Positions 18,513-33,160 of a stretch of DNA of 33,160 bases are shown here, piece by piece. The notes under the pieces are model-generated. The model was not told the DNA's origin and ran no database searches. It saw nothing but the letters and a program-made list of their open reading frames with translations. The stretch comes from Planktothrix paucivesiculata PCC 9631 (GTDB lineage: Bacteria > Cyanobacteriota > Cyanobacteriia > Cyanobacteriales > Microcoleaceae). Each line of letters opens with the position of its first letter. Positions within the stretch are counted from its first letter, which is position 1. The stretch lies in NCBI RefSeq assembly GCF_900009265.2, contig NZ_LR735020.1, positions 13,622 to 46,781 on the forward strand, written 5' to 3'. The translations under genes and the position numbers were made by a program.

Positions 18513-19859
18513 TTAACCAATTGTTAAGGCTAAATCCGTGGGTGATGTGATAACCGTAGCCGTTTGAACAACACTGGGTTGGACGTTTTTAACAACTCCT
18601 AAAATTCCCGAATTGGCAACTCGAATAATGGTGTCATTCCCAGAGGATGTAAAACTTAAATTAGCCAGATTAATTGTGTCAAGGACATGAATTTTATCGC
18701 CTTCGGTGACATTAAAATCCGTAATAATATCGGCTAAATTGATATCAGAAACCGTGGCGGCTTCATCCCCTCGTAATAGGAAAATATCAGCCCCGCCACC
18801 TCCGGTTAAAATATCTGTTCCTAAATCTCCGATTAGAAAATCTTTACCATCATTACCATTTAAACTATCATTACCTTGTCCACCTCGAATAAAGTCTGAA
18901 CCTGCACCTCCAAAGATGGTATCACTCCCCCGATTTCCATTTAAAATATCATTACCCTGTCCGCCAGTAATACTATCATTATCTTTTCCTCCCAAAATAT
19001 AATCATTGGCGTCATTTCCATCCAGAGAATCATTCCCTTGATTGCCATTAATTACATCATTTCCGATGGAACCTGTAACCCGATCATTTCCGCCTCCAGC
19101 TAATAATCCGCGAGGATTATTTTGGGTAATATCAGGGGTCATGGTTATGACATTATCGGCATCTAAATCACGAGGATAGGCATAGGATAAAGGCAGACTA
19201 CCACGATTGATAGTATTAATAAATCCATTCAAAATATTGACATCTGAAATAATTCCAGACACTCGACTGGGAATAATTCCATCAACGACGGCGGCATCCC
19301 AAATTACATTACCGACTCGAATTTGATTGACGATATCGAAGCCTTGAGTTACTGTGCCAAAAACCGCATAATTGCCATCCAAATTTGTGGAATTATCCGC
19401 TAAATTAAAATAGAATTGGGAGGAAGCGGTATCGGTTCCTGAACTAGACCGCGCCATGGCAATGGAACCGACGATATTACTTAACACCGGAGGAACGGTA
19501 ATTCCTGCTTGTTGAAAGGTTTGACTATAAAGGGGTTCTGTGGCGCCTTGGGGTTTAATTTCTAAGGGAATATTTCGGACTTGACCCGTAGCAGGGTCAA
19601 TAAAACCGCCAATTCCTAACACATTAGGATCAATATTAGGATCTTTACTTTGGGGGTCACCACCTTGAGCTACAAAGGGATTGGGGTCAATAACAACGCG
19701 ATGAAATAGGGTGTTATTATAAACATTTCGTTCAACTAAATCAACGAAATTTCCCGCCGTTATCGGAGCATTTGCACCATCAACTTGAATGGTAATAGGT
19801 AATCCTTCAACCACCATAATCACGGTGGCAGCACTGGTTAATTGGGGTAGATCAGCCAT
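18513..19859 (-). CDS. Cyclophilin-type PPIase fused to RTX calcium-binding repeats
   Basis: A 448-residue two-part protein. Residues about 10-205 are a cyclophilin peptidyl-prolyl isomerase: LFHRVV with His53 and Arg54, VAQGGDP at 63-69, ARSSSGTDTASSQFYFNL with Gln148 and Phe149, NYAVFGTV near 164. Residues about 252-360 are RTX nonapeptides (GGGNDRVTGS, NGNQGNDSLDGN, GGQGNDILNGN, GGAGSDFIRGG), ending with ADIFLL and ADIITDFNVTEGDKI, the usual last RTX module. There is no N-terminal signal, so export by a type I system reading the C-terminus is likely. It would be a secreted, calcium-dependent folding enzyme. No type I secretion genes are nearby. Conserved active-site residues suggest catalysis is kept. 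Confidence 0.92.
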   Translation of the reverse strand: MADLPQLTSAATVIMVVEGLPITIQVDGANAPITAGNFVDLVERNVYNNTLFHRVVIDPNPFVAQGGDPQSKDPNIDPNVLGIGGFIDPATGQVRNIPLEIKPQGATEPLYSQTFQQAGITVPPVLSNIVGSIAMARSSSGTDTASSQFYFNLADNSTNLDGNYAVFGTVTQGFDIVNQIRVGNVIWDAAVVDGIIPSRVSGIISDVNILNGFINTINRGSLPLSYAYPRDLDADNVITMTPDITQNNPRGLLAGGGNDRVTGSIGNDVINGNQGNDSLDGNDANDYILGGKDNDSITGGQGNDILNGNRGSDTIFGGAGSDFIRGGQGNDSLNGNDGKDFLIGDLGTDILTGGGGADIFLLRGDEAATVSDINLADIITDFNVTEGDKIHVLDTINLANLSFTSSGNDTIIRVANSGILGVVKNVQPSVVQTATVITSPTDLALTIG

Positions 19860-25546: not shown

Positions 25547-25609
25547 TTGACAGGTTGAGGAAACCATGATATTAGTTAGGAGTCCTAATAATTAGGATTC
25601 CTAACTAAT
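25547..25609 (+). promoter_or_regulatory. Promoter with 39-bp palindromic operator for the globin cluster
   Basis: TTGACA at 25547-25552, a 17-base spacer, and TATTAG at 25570-25575 form a good sigma70-type promoter. From 25571 to 25609 runs a near-perfect palindrome: arm ATTAGTTAGGAGTCCTAAT, one central A, then its reverse complement with a single mismatch. Each arm also holds a smaller dyad (AGGANTCCT). It overlaps the -10 box and the expected start site near 25582, the usual place for a repressor such as MarR. In RNA the same sequence would fold into a hairpin 6 bases before the GTG start and could hide the ribosome site. Confidence 0.75.
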
Positions 25610-25615
25610 GCTCTA

Positions 25616-26056
25616 GTGACTGATATGACATTAAATATTCAGGTTCTACAGACGAGTTTCCAACTGGTAGAGGATCGAGAGCAAGATTTTAAGCAGGCTT
25701 TCTACACCAATCTTTTAGGTGATTATCCAGAAGTCAAGCCCCTATTTGCCCATACAAAAATGGATGAGCAAGGAGATCATCTGTTTGGGTCATTGAAGTT
25801 TGTCGTTGAGAATCTTTGTAAGTCTGAACTTGTGGAACAAACTCTCAAACACTTGGGAACTCGTCACCTTAAATATGGTGTCCTCCCCCATCATTATCGC
25901 CTAGTGGGGAACTCCCTGCTCAAAACCCTAGCCGGATTAGCGGGCGATGCCTGGACTCCCGAGGTCAAAGAAGCATGGGTTGATGCTTATAGCGTGATTA
26001 CAACTGTCATGTTAGAGGGTGCACATTATCCCTCAGAGGTTTTAAAAGTAGCCTAA
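25616..26056 (+). CDS. Single-domain globin, flavohaemoglobin-like
   Basis: A 146-residue globin without the FAD/NAD reductase domain. Aligned by eye to the E. coli Hmp globin domain, Tyr30 (AFYTNLL) takes the B10 place, His84 (LGTRHLKYGVLPHHY) is the proximal haem ligand, and the distal E7 place appears to be His55 (EQGDHLF) rather than the usual Gln. Such globins bind O2 and NO and can act in NO detoxification with a separate reductase, or in sensing. GTG at 25616 gives this length; the ATG at 25625 gives 143 residues and is equally possible. It is the first gene behind the palindromic promoter and is followed by an HPP protein and a MarR regulator. Confidence 0.88.
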   Translation: MTDMTLNIQVLQTSFQLVEDREQDFKQAFYTNLLGDYPEVKPLFAHTKMDEQGDHLFGSLKFVVENLCKSELVEQTLKHLGTRHLKYGVLPHHYRLVGNSLLKTLAGLAGDAWTPEVKEAWVDAYSVITTVMLEGAHYPSEVLKVA

Positions 26057-26095
26057 AAAGAGGAATAGGATGGCGGTTTTTTGTGATGTTTTCAG

Positions 26096-26650
26096 ATGAA
26101 TAAAACTAAGTTTTTGAGAGGGATTAAACATCGACGGTTAATTGTTTATATTCGGAATTCCCGTCGTCGAGGTCGATCTTATCAGCCTCAGTTCTCCTAT
26201 CCTCAAGTGTTGCTCTCTTGGCTGGGTAGTTTTGTTGGAATTAGCATCCTCGCCTATCTTTCTGCCCATAGTCATTATCCCCTAATTGCTGCTCCGATGG
26301 GAGCAACGGCGGTTCTGGTTTTTGGTGTTCCCGATAGTCCTCTAGCCCAACCGCGCAATGTCATCGGCGGCAATTTTTGGGGGGGATTAGTTTCCATTTT
26401 ATGCGTGCAGATGTTTGGTACGGCTCCTTGGGTCATGGCCTTAGCTGTCGCCACCACCATTTTGCTGATGAAACTCACACGAACAATTCATCCGCCATCG
26501 GGGGCTGTTGCCCTGGTGGGTGTGATGAGTGGGGTATCTTGGCATTTTTTGTTCACTCCCGTGTTAGCGGGATCAGCTATTATTGTTCTTTGGACTTTTG
26601 TATTTAATAACACAGCACCCGGCCGCACTTACCCCAAACATTGGCTATGA
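26096..26650 (+). CDS. HPP-family membrane protein
   Basis: A 184-residue integral membrane protein with four or five helices from about residue 38 (LLSWLGSFVGISILAYLSA). The family name motif HPP is in RTIHPPSGAVALVGVMSG near 131, and LIAAPMGATAVLVFGVPDSPLAQPRNVIGG near 64 is the other conserved block. The first 30 residues are very basic. HPP proteins of cyanobacteria and plastids have been linked to nitrite transport. It starts 39 bases after the globin stop, preceded by AGGAATAGGA. With the globin it points to nitrogen oxide metabolism, by inference. Confidence 0.88.
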   Translation: MNKTKFLRGIKHRRLIVYIRNSRRRGRSYQPQFSYPQVLLSWLGSFVGISILAYLSAHSHYPLIAAPMGATAVLVFGVPDSPLAQPRNVIGGNFWGGLVSILCVQMFGTAPWVMALAVATTILLMKLTRTIHPPSGAVALVGVMSGVSWHFLFTPVLAGSAIIVLWTFVFNNTAPGRTYPKHWL

Positions 26651-26660
26651 AACTTAATTG

Positions 26661-27296
26661 ATGGCTAACCCTATGAGTAAAGATGAGTCTATGAATTTTT
26701 CTGATTTTGATCAAGACTCAACCGCAGAACGGATTCTGATCGGGCTTTCTAAGGTCAGCCTTGCCCTAAAAAGTCAATCTTGGCAGGATGCCGGACAATA
26801 TGGACTCTCGCCCACCCAAGCCCAAATTCTATCGTTGTTACAGGCAAAGGGGTCTGAAGGAATGCGTTTATCTGCGGTGGCAAAAGGTTTAGCTGTCACC
26901 CCCGCAACGGCCAGTGATGCGGTACGGGTTTTGTCCGAAAAAGGTTTGGTACAAAAAATCCGATCTCCCCAGGATGGACGGGCGATCGCCATCACCCTCA
27001 CTCCGAAAGGCAAAAGCACCGCGGCAGAAACCTCTTGTTGGTCTGATCTATTCTTAGATGCGGTGGGACAACTCTCTGAACTAGAGCAGACGGTTTTTTT
27101 GCGAGGATTGATTAAAATGATTCTGAAGTTGCAAGAAGGGGGTCAAATTCCGATCTCAAAAATGTGTGTGACTTGTCGCTTTTTTCAGGCTAATCGTTAT
27201 CCGAATAGCGATCGCCCCCATCATTGTGATTTTGTAGATGCTCCCTTTGGCGATCGCAATTTACATCTGGAATGTCCTGAACAAATTGCCATTTAA
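26661..27296 (+). CDS. MarR-family regulator with Cys/His-rich C-terminal tail
   Basis: A 211-residue regulator. The winged helix spans about 50-120: SPTQAQILSLLQAKG, recognition helix region VTPATASDAVRVLSEKGLV, and the wing RSPQDGRAIAITLTPKG. After the dimerisation helices comes an extra tail (about 165-211) with Cys169, Cys172, His187-His188-Cys189, His202 and Cys205: CVTCRFF ... PHHCDFVDAPFGDRNLHLECPE. Four Cys in a CX2C-X16-C-X15-C pattern suggest a metal or Fe-S site. It starts 10 bases after the HPP stop; ATG at 26661 is used, though ATGs at 26673 and 26691 are possible. I infer it represses its own operon at the palindrome and responds to NO, O2, metal or redox state. Confidence 0.9.
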   Translation: MANPMSKDESMNFSDFDQDSTAERILIGLSKVSLALKSQSWQDAGQYGLSPTQAQILSLLQAKGSEGMRLSAVAKGLAVTPATASDAVRVLSEKGLVQKIRSPQDGRAIAITLTPKGKSTAAETSCWSDLFLDAVGQLSELEQTVFLRGLIKMILKLQEGGQIPISKMCVTCRFFQANRYPNSDRPHHCDFVDAPFGDRNLHLECPEQIAI

Positions 27297-27305
27297 TTCT
27301 AATTT

Positions 27306-28031
27306 ATGGATATTTTAATTGTTGAGGATGAACCCGAAATTGCTCGTTTAATTCAGCATACTTTAGAAGCGGAAGGATTTTCTTGCCAGATTTCTAATAA
27401 TGGTTTAGCCGCTTTACAAAAATTTCAAGAATTACAACCGGATTTAATTATTTTAGATTTAATGATTCCGGGGTTAGATGGGTTAGAAGTCTGTGCTAGA
27501 ATTCGTCAGAAACCTGGGCAAAAAGACCCTTATATTTTAATGTTAACCGCTAAAGGTGAAGAACTAGATCGGATTATTGGTTTATCTACAGGGGCGGATG
27601 ATTATTTTGTTAAACCTTTTAGTCCTAGGGAATTAGTTGCTAGAGTTAGAGCGTTATTAAGACGGAGTTTGCGCCAAGGAAGTCAACCGAATCAAGTCTA
27701 TCAAACCGCGCATTTTTTAGTGGATTTAGACCAAAGAATAGCCAGCTATCAATTAGAGTCAGGGAACACAGAAACCCTGGATTTAACGACTTTAGAATTT
27801 AATTTATTATCAACTTTTCTGAGTTATCCGGGTCGGGTTTGGAGTCGTACCCAACTGATAGATAAACTTTGGGGAGATGACTTTTTTGGTGATGAAAGGG
27901 TTGTGGATACCCACGTCGCTAGACTGCGGAAAAAAATTGAACCTGACCCCTCCCATCCCACTTTTATTAAAACAGTGACGGGGGTGGGATATAAATTTGA
28001 AGATGCTGTTATAGGAGGGAATAGGGAATAG
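27306..28031 (+). CDS. OmpR/PhoB-family response regulator
   Basis: A 241-residue two-component regulator. The receiver domain has acidic residues VEDEP at 6-10, phospho-acceptor Asp51 (LIILDLMIPG), Thr80 and Lys102 (FVKPF). The winged-helix DNA-binding domain runs from about 133 to 235, with RVVDTHVARLRKKIEPD and TVTGVGYKFE. It starts 9 bases after the MarR stop, so it may belong to the globin operon. No histidine kinase gene lies next to it, making it an orphan. The last residues (AVIGGNRE) are encoded at the edge of the STRR block and are probably not conserved. Confidence 0.93.
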   Translation: MDILIVEDEPEIARLIQHTLEAEGFSCQISNNGLAALQKFQELQPDLIILDLMIPGLDGLEVCARIRQKPGQKDPYILMLTAKGEELDRIIGLSTGADDYFVKPFSPRELVARVRALLRRSLRQGSQPNQVYQTAHFLVDLDQRIASYQLESGNTETLDLTTLEFNLLSTFLSYPGRVWSRTQLIDKLWGDDFFGDERVVDTHVARLRKKIEPDPSHPTFIKTVTGVGYKFEDAVIGGNRE

Positions 28032-28185
28032 GTAATGGGTAATACTTCGACTTCGCTCAGTAACAGGGTAATGGGTAATGGGTAATGGGTAATGGGTAAT
28101 GGGTAATGGGTAATGGGTAATGGGTAATGGGTAATGGGTAATACTTCGACTTCGCTCAGTAACAGGGTAATGGGTAATGGGTAAT
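28020..28185. repeat. STRR block: GGGTAAT heptamers with two inserted units
   Basis: The block begins at the 3' end of the response-regulator gene. About 11 exact GGGTAAT copies lie at 28066-28142. On either side is an identical 25-base unit starting ACTTCGACTTCGCTCAGTAA (28044-28068 and 28143-28167), 99 bases apart. Shorter heptamer runs lie outside them. A minus-strand frame through the block translates to repeated ITHYPLP and VTERSRS, well-known STRR artefacts and not a protein. Confidence 0.95.
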
Positions 28186-28272
28186 AAGACTTTATTGGCT
28201 GTTGCTATATTTTTAATTAAAATTGAGGGATTTAAGGTAAAATAGATTAACTGTATTGATAATTTTATCATA

Positions 28273-31435: not shown

Positions 31436-32496
31436 CAGGACTTACGCAGTGACGCTATATGTAGCGTACTAAGGAGTTAGCGATCGCTAACCCAAAAGAA
31501 ATCTGGAAACGGAGAATAAGAAATGTTAAAATAGCATCAGAATTTATGCCCAAAAATTATGAGCATCAATTATCTATACTATTGCCAATATCTCCTGAGT
31601 AGCCAAATCAACTATACTCTAACTAACTTTGCTGCACATATTCAAGAGTTTAGCCATGATACAATTAATCGTTACTTGAATTCAGAAAACTTAACACCCG
31701 AAGTGATTTGGGAAAAAGTGCATTCAGAACTTCAGAGCCATCCGGAAGCTTGTTTGGTTTTTGATGATACGGTACTCGATAAAAGATTTTCCTCAAAAAT
31801 TGAACTTGTCCGCCGTCAATATATATGCAGCGCAAAAGTTAATGGCTTTGATTGATAATTTAGGGAAAATTTATTATGTTCCGCTCAAAAAAAACCGGCT
31901 GGTTGATGATACAGGAGGTCAAAAAAAATATCAGCCTATTGAACAGTTAATGTGGTCTGAAATTGAAGAAAAACAGGGAAAGCTAATCAAAATAAATAAA
32001 TTCCCCTCATATAAAAAGGTCAAACTATTTCGGGTGACTGTTTCTGCCAACAGAACGGAATATGTAGCTACAAATGATTTAAATCAGTCTTCAATAGATG
32101 AAGTCATCTCTCAATGTAAACTGCGATGGAAAATTGAGGAATTCCACCGAGAAATTAAACAATTAACCGGGATAGAATCTTGTCAATGCCGTAAAGCGAG
32201 TGTTCAAAAAAACCACATTGCTTGCGCTTTATTAGTTTGGGTTTTTCTGACTCGTATGGCTAAGAAAGTTTCTCAAACTGTCTATCAGTTAAAAGCTGGT
32301 TTATTAGCAGATTACCTGAGCCAAGAGCTTAAACATCCCTCTCTAAAACTTTCTTTTATTTAGTTTACTCATCAATTCAAACACAGATTAATTCTCTTTT
32401 TATAAGCGCGCTCGCGTAGCGTGCCAGAGGCCTATTGCCCTTCTGTCTCAACCAGATCCTTAATGCGCTATATATAGCGTCCTTGCGTAAGTCCTG
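31436..32496 (+). mobile_element. IS copy 2, complete ends, internally deleted
   Basis: A 1061-bp element. The left end CAGGACTTACGCA (31436) and the right end TGCGTAAGTCCTG (to 32496) are perfect 13-base inverted repeats. Each is followed inward by a small palindrome around CTATATNTAG. The inner 31757-32363 part is nearly identical to 1-607. No clear target-site duplication is visible (TGCGA on the left, TAAGT on the right). The right side cuts into another reading frame (32490-32621). Confidence 0.88.
31559..32363 (+). pseudogene. Transposase, IS4/IS701-like DDE family, deleted and frameshifted
   Basis: The N-terminal frame (31559-31855) gives YTLTNFAAHIQEFSHDTINRYL and LVFDDTVLDKRFSSKIELVRRQY, matching the start of a cyanobacterial DDE transposase with its first catalytic Asp. 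After RRQY it runs into ten unrelated codons and a stop. The C-terminal half continues in another frame to 32363 and keeps the WKIEEFHREIKQLTG helix. The piece between, with the second catalytic Asp, is missing. Exactly the same junction is found in copy 1, so the deletion is older than the duplication. Confidence 0.88.
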
Positions 32497-32728: not shown

Positions 32729-33160
32729 TCAAAAGTATTCTGGGCAATTCTTAGATGATAATACAATCGCTCCTATTCGCCATCTTATTAGTCCACATAC
32801 TGTCAAGATTACTGCTTCATAATTTTGGCTCTTTAACCGAAATCTTTCGGAAGCAACTCGATAAATTTTTATCAGTCTTATTAAATGTTCGACTACAATC
32901 CTTTGTTTGGCTTTTAACCGATTTTCTTCTCGATGTTCAAGGGATATTTCTTGATTCCTCGGTTTCTTATGTGGTGTATTAATTGCTGTTTCCCCTACAT
33001 AAGCTTTATCCCCCCTGTATTTTTGATGATTCCCCAATTCCTCCCTTCTTTCTCTCCACAATTTCAGATCGCTTGTTGCTCCGGTATAACCCACAGCTAC
33101 ATCCACTATTTCTTTCCCGCTCGGCATGACAATGACTTGATTTTTAAACGTATGTGTTTT
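32729..33160 (-). CDS. IS5-like transposase, C-terminal part, runs off the window
   Basis: At least 143 codons are open from the right edge (KTHTFKNQVIVMPSGKEIVDV) to a stop at 32729. VAVGYTGATSDLKLW, RGDKAYVG (second catalytic Asp) and RIVVEHLIRLIKIYRV (catalytic Glu) are hallmarks of DDE_Tnp_4-type IS5-family transposases. The true start lies beyond the window; the Met at 33127 is internal. Nothing seen here disrupts the frame, so this element may be intact. Its left IS end must lie between about 32622 and 32728 but I cannot place it. Confidence 0.88.
   Translation of the reverse strand, partial: KTHTFKNQVIVMPSGKEIVDVAVGYTGATSDLKLWRERREELGNHQKYRGDKAYVGETAINTPHKKPRNQEISLEHREENRLKAKQRIVVEHLIRLIKIYRVASERFRLKSQNYEAVILTVCGLIRWRIGAIVLSSKNCPEYF

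Follow-up and report, generated by a model that had tools for sequence, protein, structure and literature searches.

The closest described system to the one analysed here is NsrR–hmp, in which an Rrf2-family repressor that carries an iron–sulfur (Fe-S) cluster controls the gene of a flavohaemoglobin. We examined a 33,160-nucleotide stretch of the genome of Planktothrix paucivesiculata PCC 9631 (the window), in which a single-domain globin, an HPP-family membrane protein and a MarR-family regulator with a C-terminal four-cysteine tail are encoded behind a pair of palindromes. Similar to NsrR–hmp, a palindromic operator and a putative local repressor accompany a globin gene, and we propose, with a probability of roughly 0.6, that the Cys-tailed MarR is the local repressor of a globin operon and works in an NsrR–hmp-like manner. 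For Bacillus and Streptomyces, PMC1274295 reports candidate NsrR sites upstream of hmp alone, and in B. subtilis predicted tandem NsrR sites overlap with the promoter of hmp. The NsrR consensus given there (PMC1274295) is gATGyAT-N5-ATrCATc, whereas the predicted operator of the Planktothrix locus is TTAGGANTCCTAA. The regulator differs from NsrR as well: it has a MarR fold with four cysteines in a C-terminal tail, and no Rrf2 domain is found among the eight Pfam families reported for it. Its partner is a single-domain globin or, in other genomes, a protoglobin, rather than Hmp.

The individual components have better known relatives. A palindromic operator at the promoter is the usual mode of the MarR family, and the Planktothrix MarR shares its fold with the MarR-family repressors MepR and ST1710. 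The solved chains that align with it are ~140–170 residues long and span the MarR part, whereas here the four-Cys tail is an addition. The solved chains closest to the globin by sequence are 3wfw, 3s1i and 3ubc, which we take to be Methylacidiphilum-type single-domain globins. In two alignments, the Tyr, Gln and proximal His positions of the Planktothrix globin match those of its closest solved relatives; these are presumably positions B10, E7 and F8. Unlike the Methylacidiphilum-type globins, the Planktothrix globin belongs to a unit that also comprises HPP and MarR. What single-domain globins and protoglobins do in bacterial physiology is still a matter of debate. The HPP protein belongs to the same family as the nitrite transporter AtNITR2;1, for which nitrite uptake is reported in a review (PMC4137279). 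In contrast to AtNITR2;1, the HPP protein here is linked to a globin. Judged by titles and the beginnings of abstracts, the open literature searched, with most subscription papers outside its scope, shows no description of this regulator or operator. What would be new is a MarR repressor with a new accessory domain that controls globins, NsrR-like in its working without being an NsrR.

The predicted operator and the Cys-tailed MarR

The most informative element of the locus, absent from the earlier sequence-only reading of this DNA, is a 39-bp inverted repeat (19+19 bp, positions 25571–25609) located between the promoter and the globin gene. It is made up of two perfect 13-bp TTAGGANTCCTAA palindromes 16 bp apart, TTAGGAGTCCTAA at 25576–25588 and TTAGGATTCCTAA at 25592–25604, which together form the predicted operator and are the only exact copies of TTAGGANTCCTAA in the 6.15-Mb assembly (97.5% complete). 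The repeat covers the −10 element of a putative plus-strand promoter, which consists of a −35 hexamer TTGACA (25547–25552), a 17-nt spacer and a probable −10 hexamer TATTAG (25570–25575). This promoter is not listed by a generic promoter scan, whose −10 rule, demanding a final T, it fails; the scan itself gave 27 matches against a shuffled mean of 15.3, which is weak evidence. The distance between the hexamer and the palindrome is conserved. Of 13 cyanobacterial loci with an exact palindrome, drawn from 11 genomes, 11 have TTGACA starting 29 or 30 bp ahead of one; in L039 this applies to one of two sites. Of the remaining two, L033 carries its exact palindrome at 45 bp from TTGACA and, at 29 bp, a first palindrome that is degenerate, and in L035 the exact palindrome lies at 47 bp. 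A repressor that targets the binding of RNA polymerase would require spacing this strict, and the conservation backs the earlier proposal of a promoter ahead of the gene cluster.

The regulator is encoded on the plus strand at 26658–27296 (start TTG at 26658 or ATG at 26661; MarR_2, PF12802, 2.7e-11). Its AlphaFold2 model has the canonical MarR winged-helix fold, with Foldseek matches to ST1710 and MepR (best E 2.9e-07). The tail, delimited by alignments, spans residues 160–212 (27135–27293, plus strand). It is ~50 residues long and contains Cys170, Cys173, Cys190 and Cys206 together with His188 in the pattern C-x2-C-x16-C-x15-C with an H-x-C motif. All four cysteines are kept in 75 of 75 tail loci from six bacterial groups, which were gathered with a profile that itself contains the cysteines. 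The C2–C3 distance is 16 in 67 of the 75 tails, the C3–C4 distance is 15 in every one, and a MarR domain is present in 74 loci, the exception being a 46-residue fragment. We take the cysteine spacing to resemble that of HiPIPs; sequence searches do not support the likeness, as the tail has no HiPIP match in the PDB or Pfam that would indicate a HiPIP-type [4Fe-4S] site. The tail is probably sensory, and it adds to the MarR fold a four-Cys domain that has no name in Pfam.

The operator travels with this regulator. Within the 4.5 kb that precede the tail gene, or at its start, an exact site is found in 29/75 tail-MarR loci and the reversed control in 0/75; the core AGGANTCCT is found in 41/75 and its reversed pattern in 4/75. 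Exact sites occur in 11/16 loci of Cyanobacteria, 13/22 of Acidobacteriota, 2/2 of Planctomycetes and 3/21 of Actinomycetota, with 0/3 in Armatimonadota and 0/11 in Alphaproteobacteria. In nine rows from Acidobacteriota and Planctomycetes, only 16–31 bp separate the exact site from the downstream start of the MarR open reading frame (ORF). The 75 rows exclude duplicates (L032, L034, L040, L041), decayed Planktothrix loci (L044–L046) and loci centred on a response regulator (L163–L166). They are not independent and include the near-copies L074/L075 (identical in the tree), L077/L078, L070/L072, L064–L066 and L060/L062. Short contigs leave part of the 4.5 kb upstream missing in several rows (e.g. 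L039, L043, L071, L086, L149), and L064, from a record titled ‘uncultured bacterium’, was placed with the Armatimonadota by similarity.

A genome-wide search for the site covered 60 of the 65 tail genomes (five weak-tail ones were excluded) and 20 hand-chosen controls. Three of the 60 (G190, G126 and G245) hold MarR remnants only, and one control, G291, counts as tail-free on the basis of the stretch read. Of the 42 exact sites in the 60 tail genomes, 28, spread over 24 genomes, are no more than 6 kb from the tail gene, some positions in this tally being rounded; the random expectation is ~0.1 by an estimate that takes 12 kb of about 5 Mb. Among globin loci from the order of the source organism, inspected with flanks of ~1.5 kb, the exact site is present in 4/5 that have the tail-MarR (the fifth has the core) and in 0/25 that do not.

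Two other owners of the operator were ruled out: the globin, because the site is missing at 25/25 globin loci without the MarR, and the response regulator downstream, because the site is found at loci that have none. In genome G174, a second exact site (L228) lies ahead of genes for a protoglobin (in two separate ORFs), a secreted protein and a globin. This set has no local MarR, the MarR being on another contig, and is probably a target in trans. From these sequence comparisons, we expect with high confidence that the MarR would bind the operator and act as a repressor there.

Partner genes

The sequence-only reading had also described four genes, for globin, HPP, MarR and a response regulator, clustered in one direction. 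ORF calls and Pfam confirm the cluster, on the plus strand, with its gaps of 39, 10 and 9 nt, the HPP–MarR gap shrinking to 7 nt if TTG is the MarR start. The first gene (25625–26056, plus strand, ATG start; an upstream in-frame GTG at 25616 is possible) encodes a single-domain, flavohaemoglobin-like globin, with PF00042 (2.3e-18) over residues 25–129 of 143. It has no FAD/NAD reductase domain, and the model of the NO-inducible flavohaemoprotein, NF009805, is matched at 5–131 only, i.e. over its globin part. The HPP membrane protein (26096–26650, plus strand; TM_HPP, 9.2e-51) is the sole PF04982 match in the assembly. The claim that globin, HPP and Cys-tailed MarR form a linked unit is borne out, both the linkage and the shared predicted operator being conserved, and the conserved core is globin and/or HPP plus the Cys-tailed MarR. 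As a rough control, 15 weaker MarR matches (L017–L031), which align no further than residue 177, have neither globin nor HPP in flanks of up to 1.5 kb.

Partners were tallied within 4.5 kb of the tail-MarR. A globin or protoglobin is present in 28/75 loci. Single-domain globins are found in 9/16 cyanobacterial and 2/2 planctomycete loci, and protoglobins in 6/22 loci of Acidobacteriota, 11/21 actinobacterial and 3/16 cyanobacterial loci; in a sample of the phylum of one actinobacterium, the partner is a protoglobin in 11/13. The identity of the protoglobin is confirmed by PF11563 and by solved protoglobins, which match at 4e-81. HPP is a neighbour in 5/16 cyanobacterial loci and in 0/59 others. 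Acidobacteriota, Planctomycetes, Alphaproteobacteria and some cyanobacteria have thiol-redox partners. A thioredoxin-like CPGC protein is found in five cyanobacterial and five alphaproteobacterial loci, and a glutaredoxin-like HAGCPVC protein, 77–82 residues long where its ORF is well bounded, in 12 loci. Examples of the latter are L070:7557-7796, L077:8698-8937 and L131:4556-4792, and the member scanned falls below the Pfam cut-offs.

MOSC proteins accompany the tail-MarR in seven loci. In Actinomycetota L154–L159, a protoglobin–MarR pair is followed by a MOSC/YiiM-type protein, and in the alphaproteobacterial L145 a MOSC protein lies downstream of the tail-MarR. A secreted-looking family of ~230–290 residues with HPDFDD and HSHWVVL signatures is present in 13 loci from cyanobacteria, Alphaproteobacteria, one acidobacterium and one actinobacterium (e.g. 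L036:11598-12413, L130:5246-6091, L143:5285-6046 and L060:8832-9644). The members scanned have no Pfam or NCBIfam match, and the best PDB match has an E value of 0.92. In Moorena bouillonii, a single contig (L062:1-6154, G160:C2) carries repeated, partly broken copies of the tail-MarR with secreted and glutaredoxin-like neighbours.

Proposed mechanism and its rivals

In the proposed mechanism, MarR dimers would occupy the tandem TTAGGANTCCTAA palindromes over the −10 element of the TTGACA promoter and block transcription of globin, HPP and MarR, the regulator itself included, and in Planktothrix possibly also readthrough into the response regulator gene. The C-terminal tail with its H-x-C motif may carry a metal, in an Fe-S or Zn centre, or may serve as a redox-sensitive thiol switch, and attack on it by nitric oxide (NO), other reactive nitrogen species or oxidants would release the repressor. 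The derepressed single-domain globin could then bind or detoxify NO/O2, and HPP could move a related anion, perhaps nitrite. By analogy with NsrR–hmp, the natural signal for an operon of globin plus HPP would be NO or nitrite-derived stress, and an NO/nitrite theme fits the partners, i.e. two globin lineages, HPP, MOSC and thiol-redox proteins. However, thiol-redox and secreted partners without a nearby globin in Alphaproteobacteria and part of the Acidobacteriota make a broader redox signal nearly as likely. We put the chance that NO or reactive nitrogen species, rather than another redox cue, are the main signal slightly below even, and consider it doubtful that HPP carries nitrite.

A number of results weigh against the proposal. 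Even the core site is missing from 34/75 tail loci, and 47/75 have no globin within 4.5 kb, including 11/11 alphaproteobacterial and 3/3 Armatimonadota loci; the globins of the two planctomycete rows lie on the opposite strand, more than 2 kb away. Of 30 globin loci collected in the source order, 25 lack this MarR, and two further globin matches lie elsewhere in the source genome. In the tail genomes, 14 of the 42 exact sites lie away from the tail gene; one is the probable trans target in G174, and 13 have none of the eight profiled partner families within ~2.5 kb, so some exact matches are not meaningful. Five exact sites occur in 3/20 control genomes, and over all 80 genomes there are 47 exact sites against 18 reversed-pattern sites, which means that single distant matches can be due to chance. 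The tail has no Pfam family match (best E 0.099) and no convincing solved structure in the PDB (best E 0.14). AlphaFold2 gives it low confidence, the main element being a single short C-terminal helix; a segment that is flexible or organised by a metal might well look like this. Finally, turnover by a globin without a reductase domain of its own would depend on a reductase supplied in trans.

One rival is a general thiol-redox or oxidant switch, in which the tail would sense disulfide or electrophile stress, the globin would be one accessory among thioredoxin-like, glutaredoxin-like, GATase and secreted partners, and NO would be incidental. Thioredoxin- or glutaredoxin-like partners in 6/11 alphaproteobacterial, 7/22 Acidobacteriota, 2/2 planctomycete and 7/16 cyanobacterial loci speak for it, as do the 11/11 alphaproteobacterial loci without a globin in range. 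Yet globins of two lineages are paired with the regulator in 28/75 loci, MOSC proteins in seven, and among the 21 actinobacterial rows 11 have a globin and none has a profiled thiol partner; we regard this explanation as rather unlikely. The Cys4-His1 composition of the tail would also suit a sensor that binds Zn or Cu, with an operon that answers metal supply and a globin link rooted in the economy of haem or iron. Among NCBIfam models, the DNA-binding part comes closest to an AdcR-type zinc MarR, though its 35 bits fall far short of the cut-off of 175, and a cupredoxin-like gene adjoins L064. However, metal transporters are absent from a selection of 30 neighbour proteins scanned with Pfam and globins dominate in three groups, which makes a metal sensor improbable.

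The globin could instead be the sensor part, passing its gas-binding state to MarR rather than acting as an effector enzyme. MarR and protoglobin genes are neighbours in 6/22 Acidobacteriota and 11/21 actinobacterial rows, and in one acidobacterium (L063, 7956–9266) the MarR-tail and the protoglobin share a single 436-residue stop-free frame. As a true fusion this frame is weak: by eye, its linker resembles a translated spacer and the protoglobin keeps its own Met. Given also that two different globin lineages serve and that 47/75 tail-MarRs are without a nearby globin, we give this arrangement a small chance.

It is likewise improbable that the locus is a four-gene operon in which the response regulator relays the signal. 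This OmpR/PhoB-type protein (27306–28031, plus strand; Response_reg and Trans_reg_C) is encoded 9 nt behind MarR in the same direction, and directly downstream of it in the three Planktothrix genomes with a near-full MarR (G000, G239 and G273). On the other hand, it is kept in 10/10 Planktothrix genomes searched, at 94–100% identity, even where the cassette is fragmentary or not found, and it adjoins MarR in 3/16 cyanobacterial rows, all of them Planktothrix, and in 0/13 others. Such retention next to a variable cassette makes the response regulator core to the genus. Its earlier assignment to the unit thus does not hold, and the reading of the locus is corrected: the response regulator adjoins the unit without being a conserved part of it.

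Under the preferred reading, a local, NsrR-like repressor of a globin operon, the presence of a dedicated repressor with a strongly conserved predicted operator makes the inducer of globins and protoglobins directly testable, and operator and tail together provide a genomic handle on their regulons in several phyla. The tail-MarR loci of these distant groups point to an undescribed redox- or nitric-oxide-responsive control system. More tentatively, cross-phylum MarR-fold repressors with a C-terminal Fe-S or Zn centre might constitute a second, independent NsrR-type control of haemoglobins that senses NO or a related redox signal. Its operator would be almost unchanged from Cyanobacteria to Actinomycetota, and it would be coupled to two globin lineages, with the protoglobin as a possible direct partner of the repressor.

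Apparent cassette decay, distribution and minor features

In Planktothrix, the globin cassette seems to be a dispensable and decaying neighbour of the response regulator gene, into which readthrough from the cassette is possible. The cassette is intact in G000 and G239. G273 keeps HPP and MarR with only a fragment of the globin, and G291 keeps the globin, but both HPP and MarR are missing from the stretch read. In G190 and G126, only the last 74 MarR residues are left beside the response regulator, still preceded by a near-operator (one base off) and TTGACA. MarR fragments are found in G245, and no recognisable cassette gene is present in the stretches read from G260, G075 and G140.

The tail-MarR is rare but wide, as judged by frequency samples, each of which includes its own centre genome and gives counts that are lower bounds. 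It was found in at least 4/386 cyanobacterial genomes (one holding only a remnant), at least 14/297 genomes from the phylum of an acidobacterium, at least 9/240 from the class of an alphaproteobacterium and at least 13/246 from the phylum of an actinobacterium. When the whole MarR serves as query, 12/291 genomes of the source order yield a near-full-length relative of at least 62% identity. All 16 cyanobacterial rows group in a single clade of the tree (Shimodaira–Hasegawa-like approximate likelihood ratio test, SH-aLRT, 98), and at least nine changes are required to account for which loci have a globin neighbour. The tree is of a quick kind with several long branches, excludes L149 and L159, and does not separate gains from losses.

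Three further features of the window were noted by eye. Just past the response regulator gene, at 28031–28190, lie short tandem repeats of the TAATGGG type interspersed with two longer-unit copies. A minus-strand ORF at 18513–19859 starts like a cyclophilin-type peptidyl-prolyl isomerase and carries GGxGxD-like calcium-binding repeats in its later part. At the end of the window, ORFs at 31559–32363 (two overlapping frames) and 32729–33127 resemble pieces of transposases.

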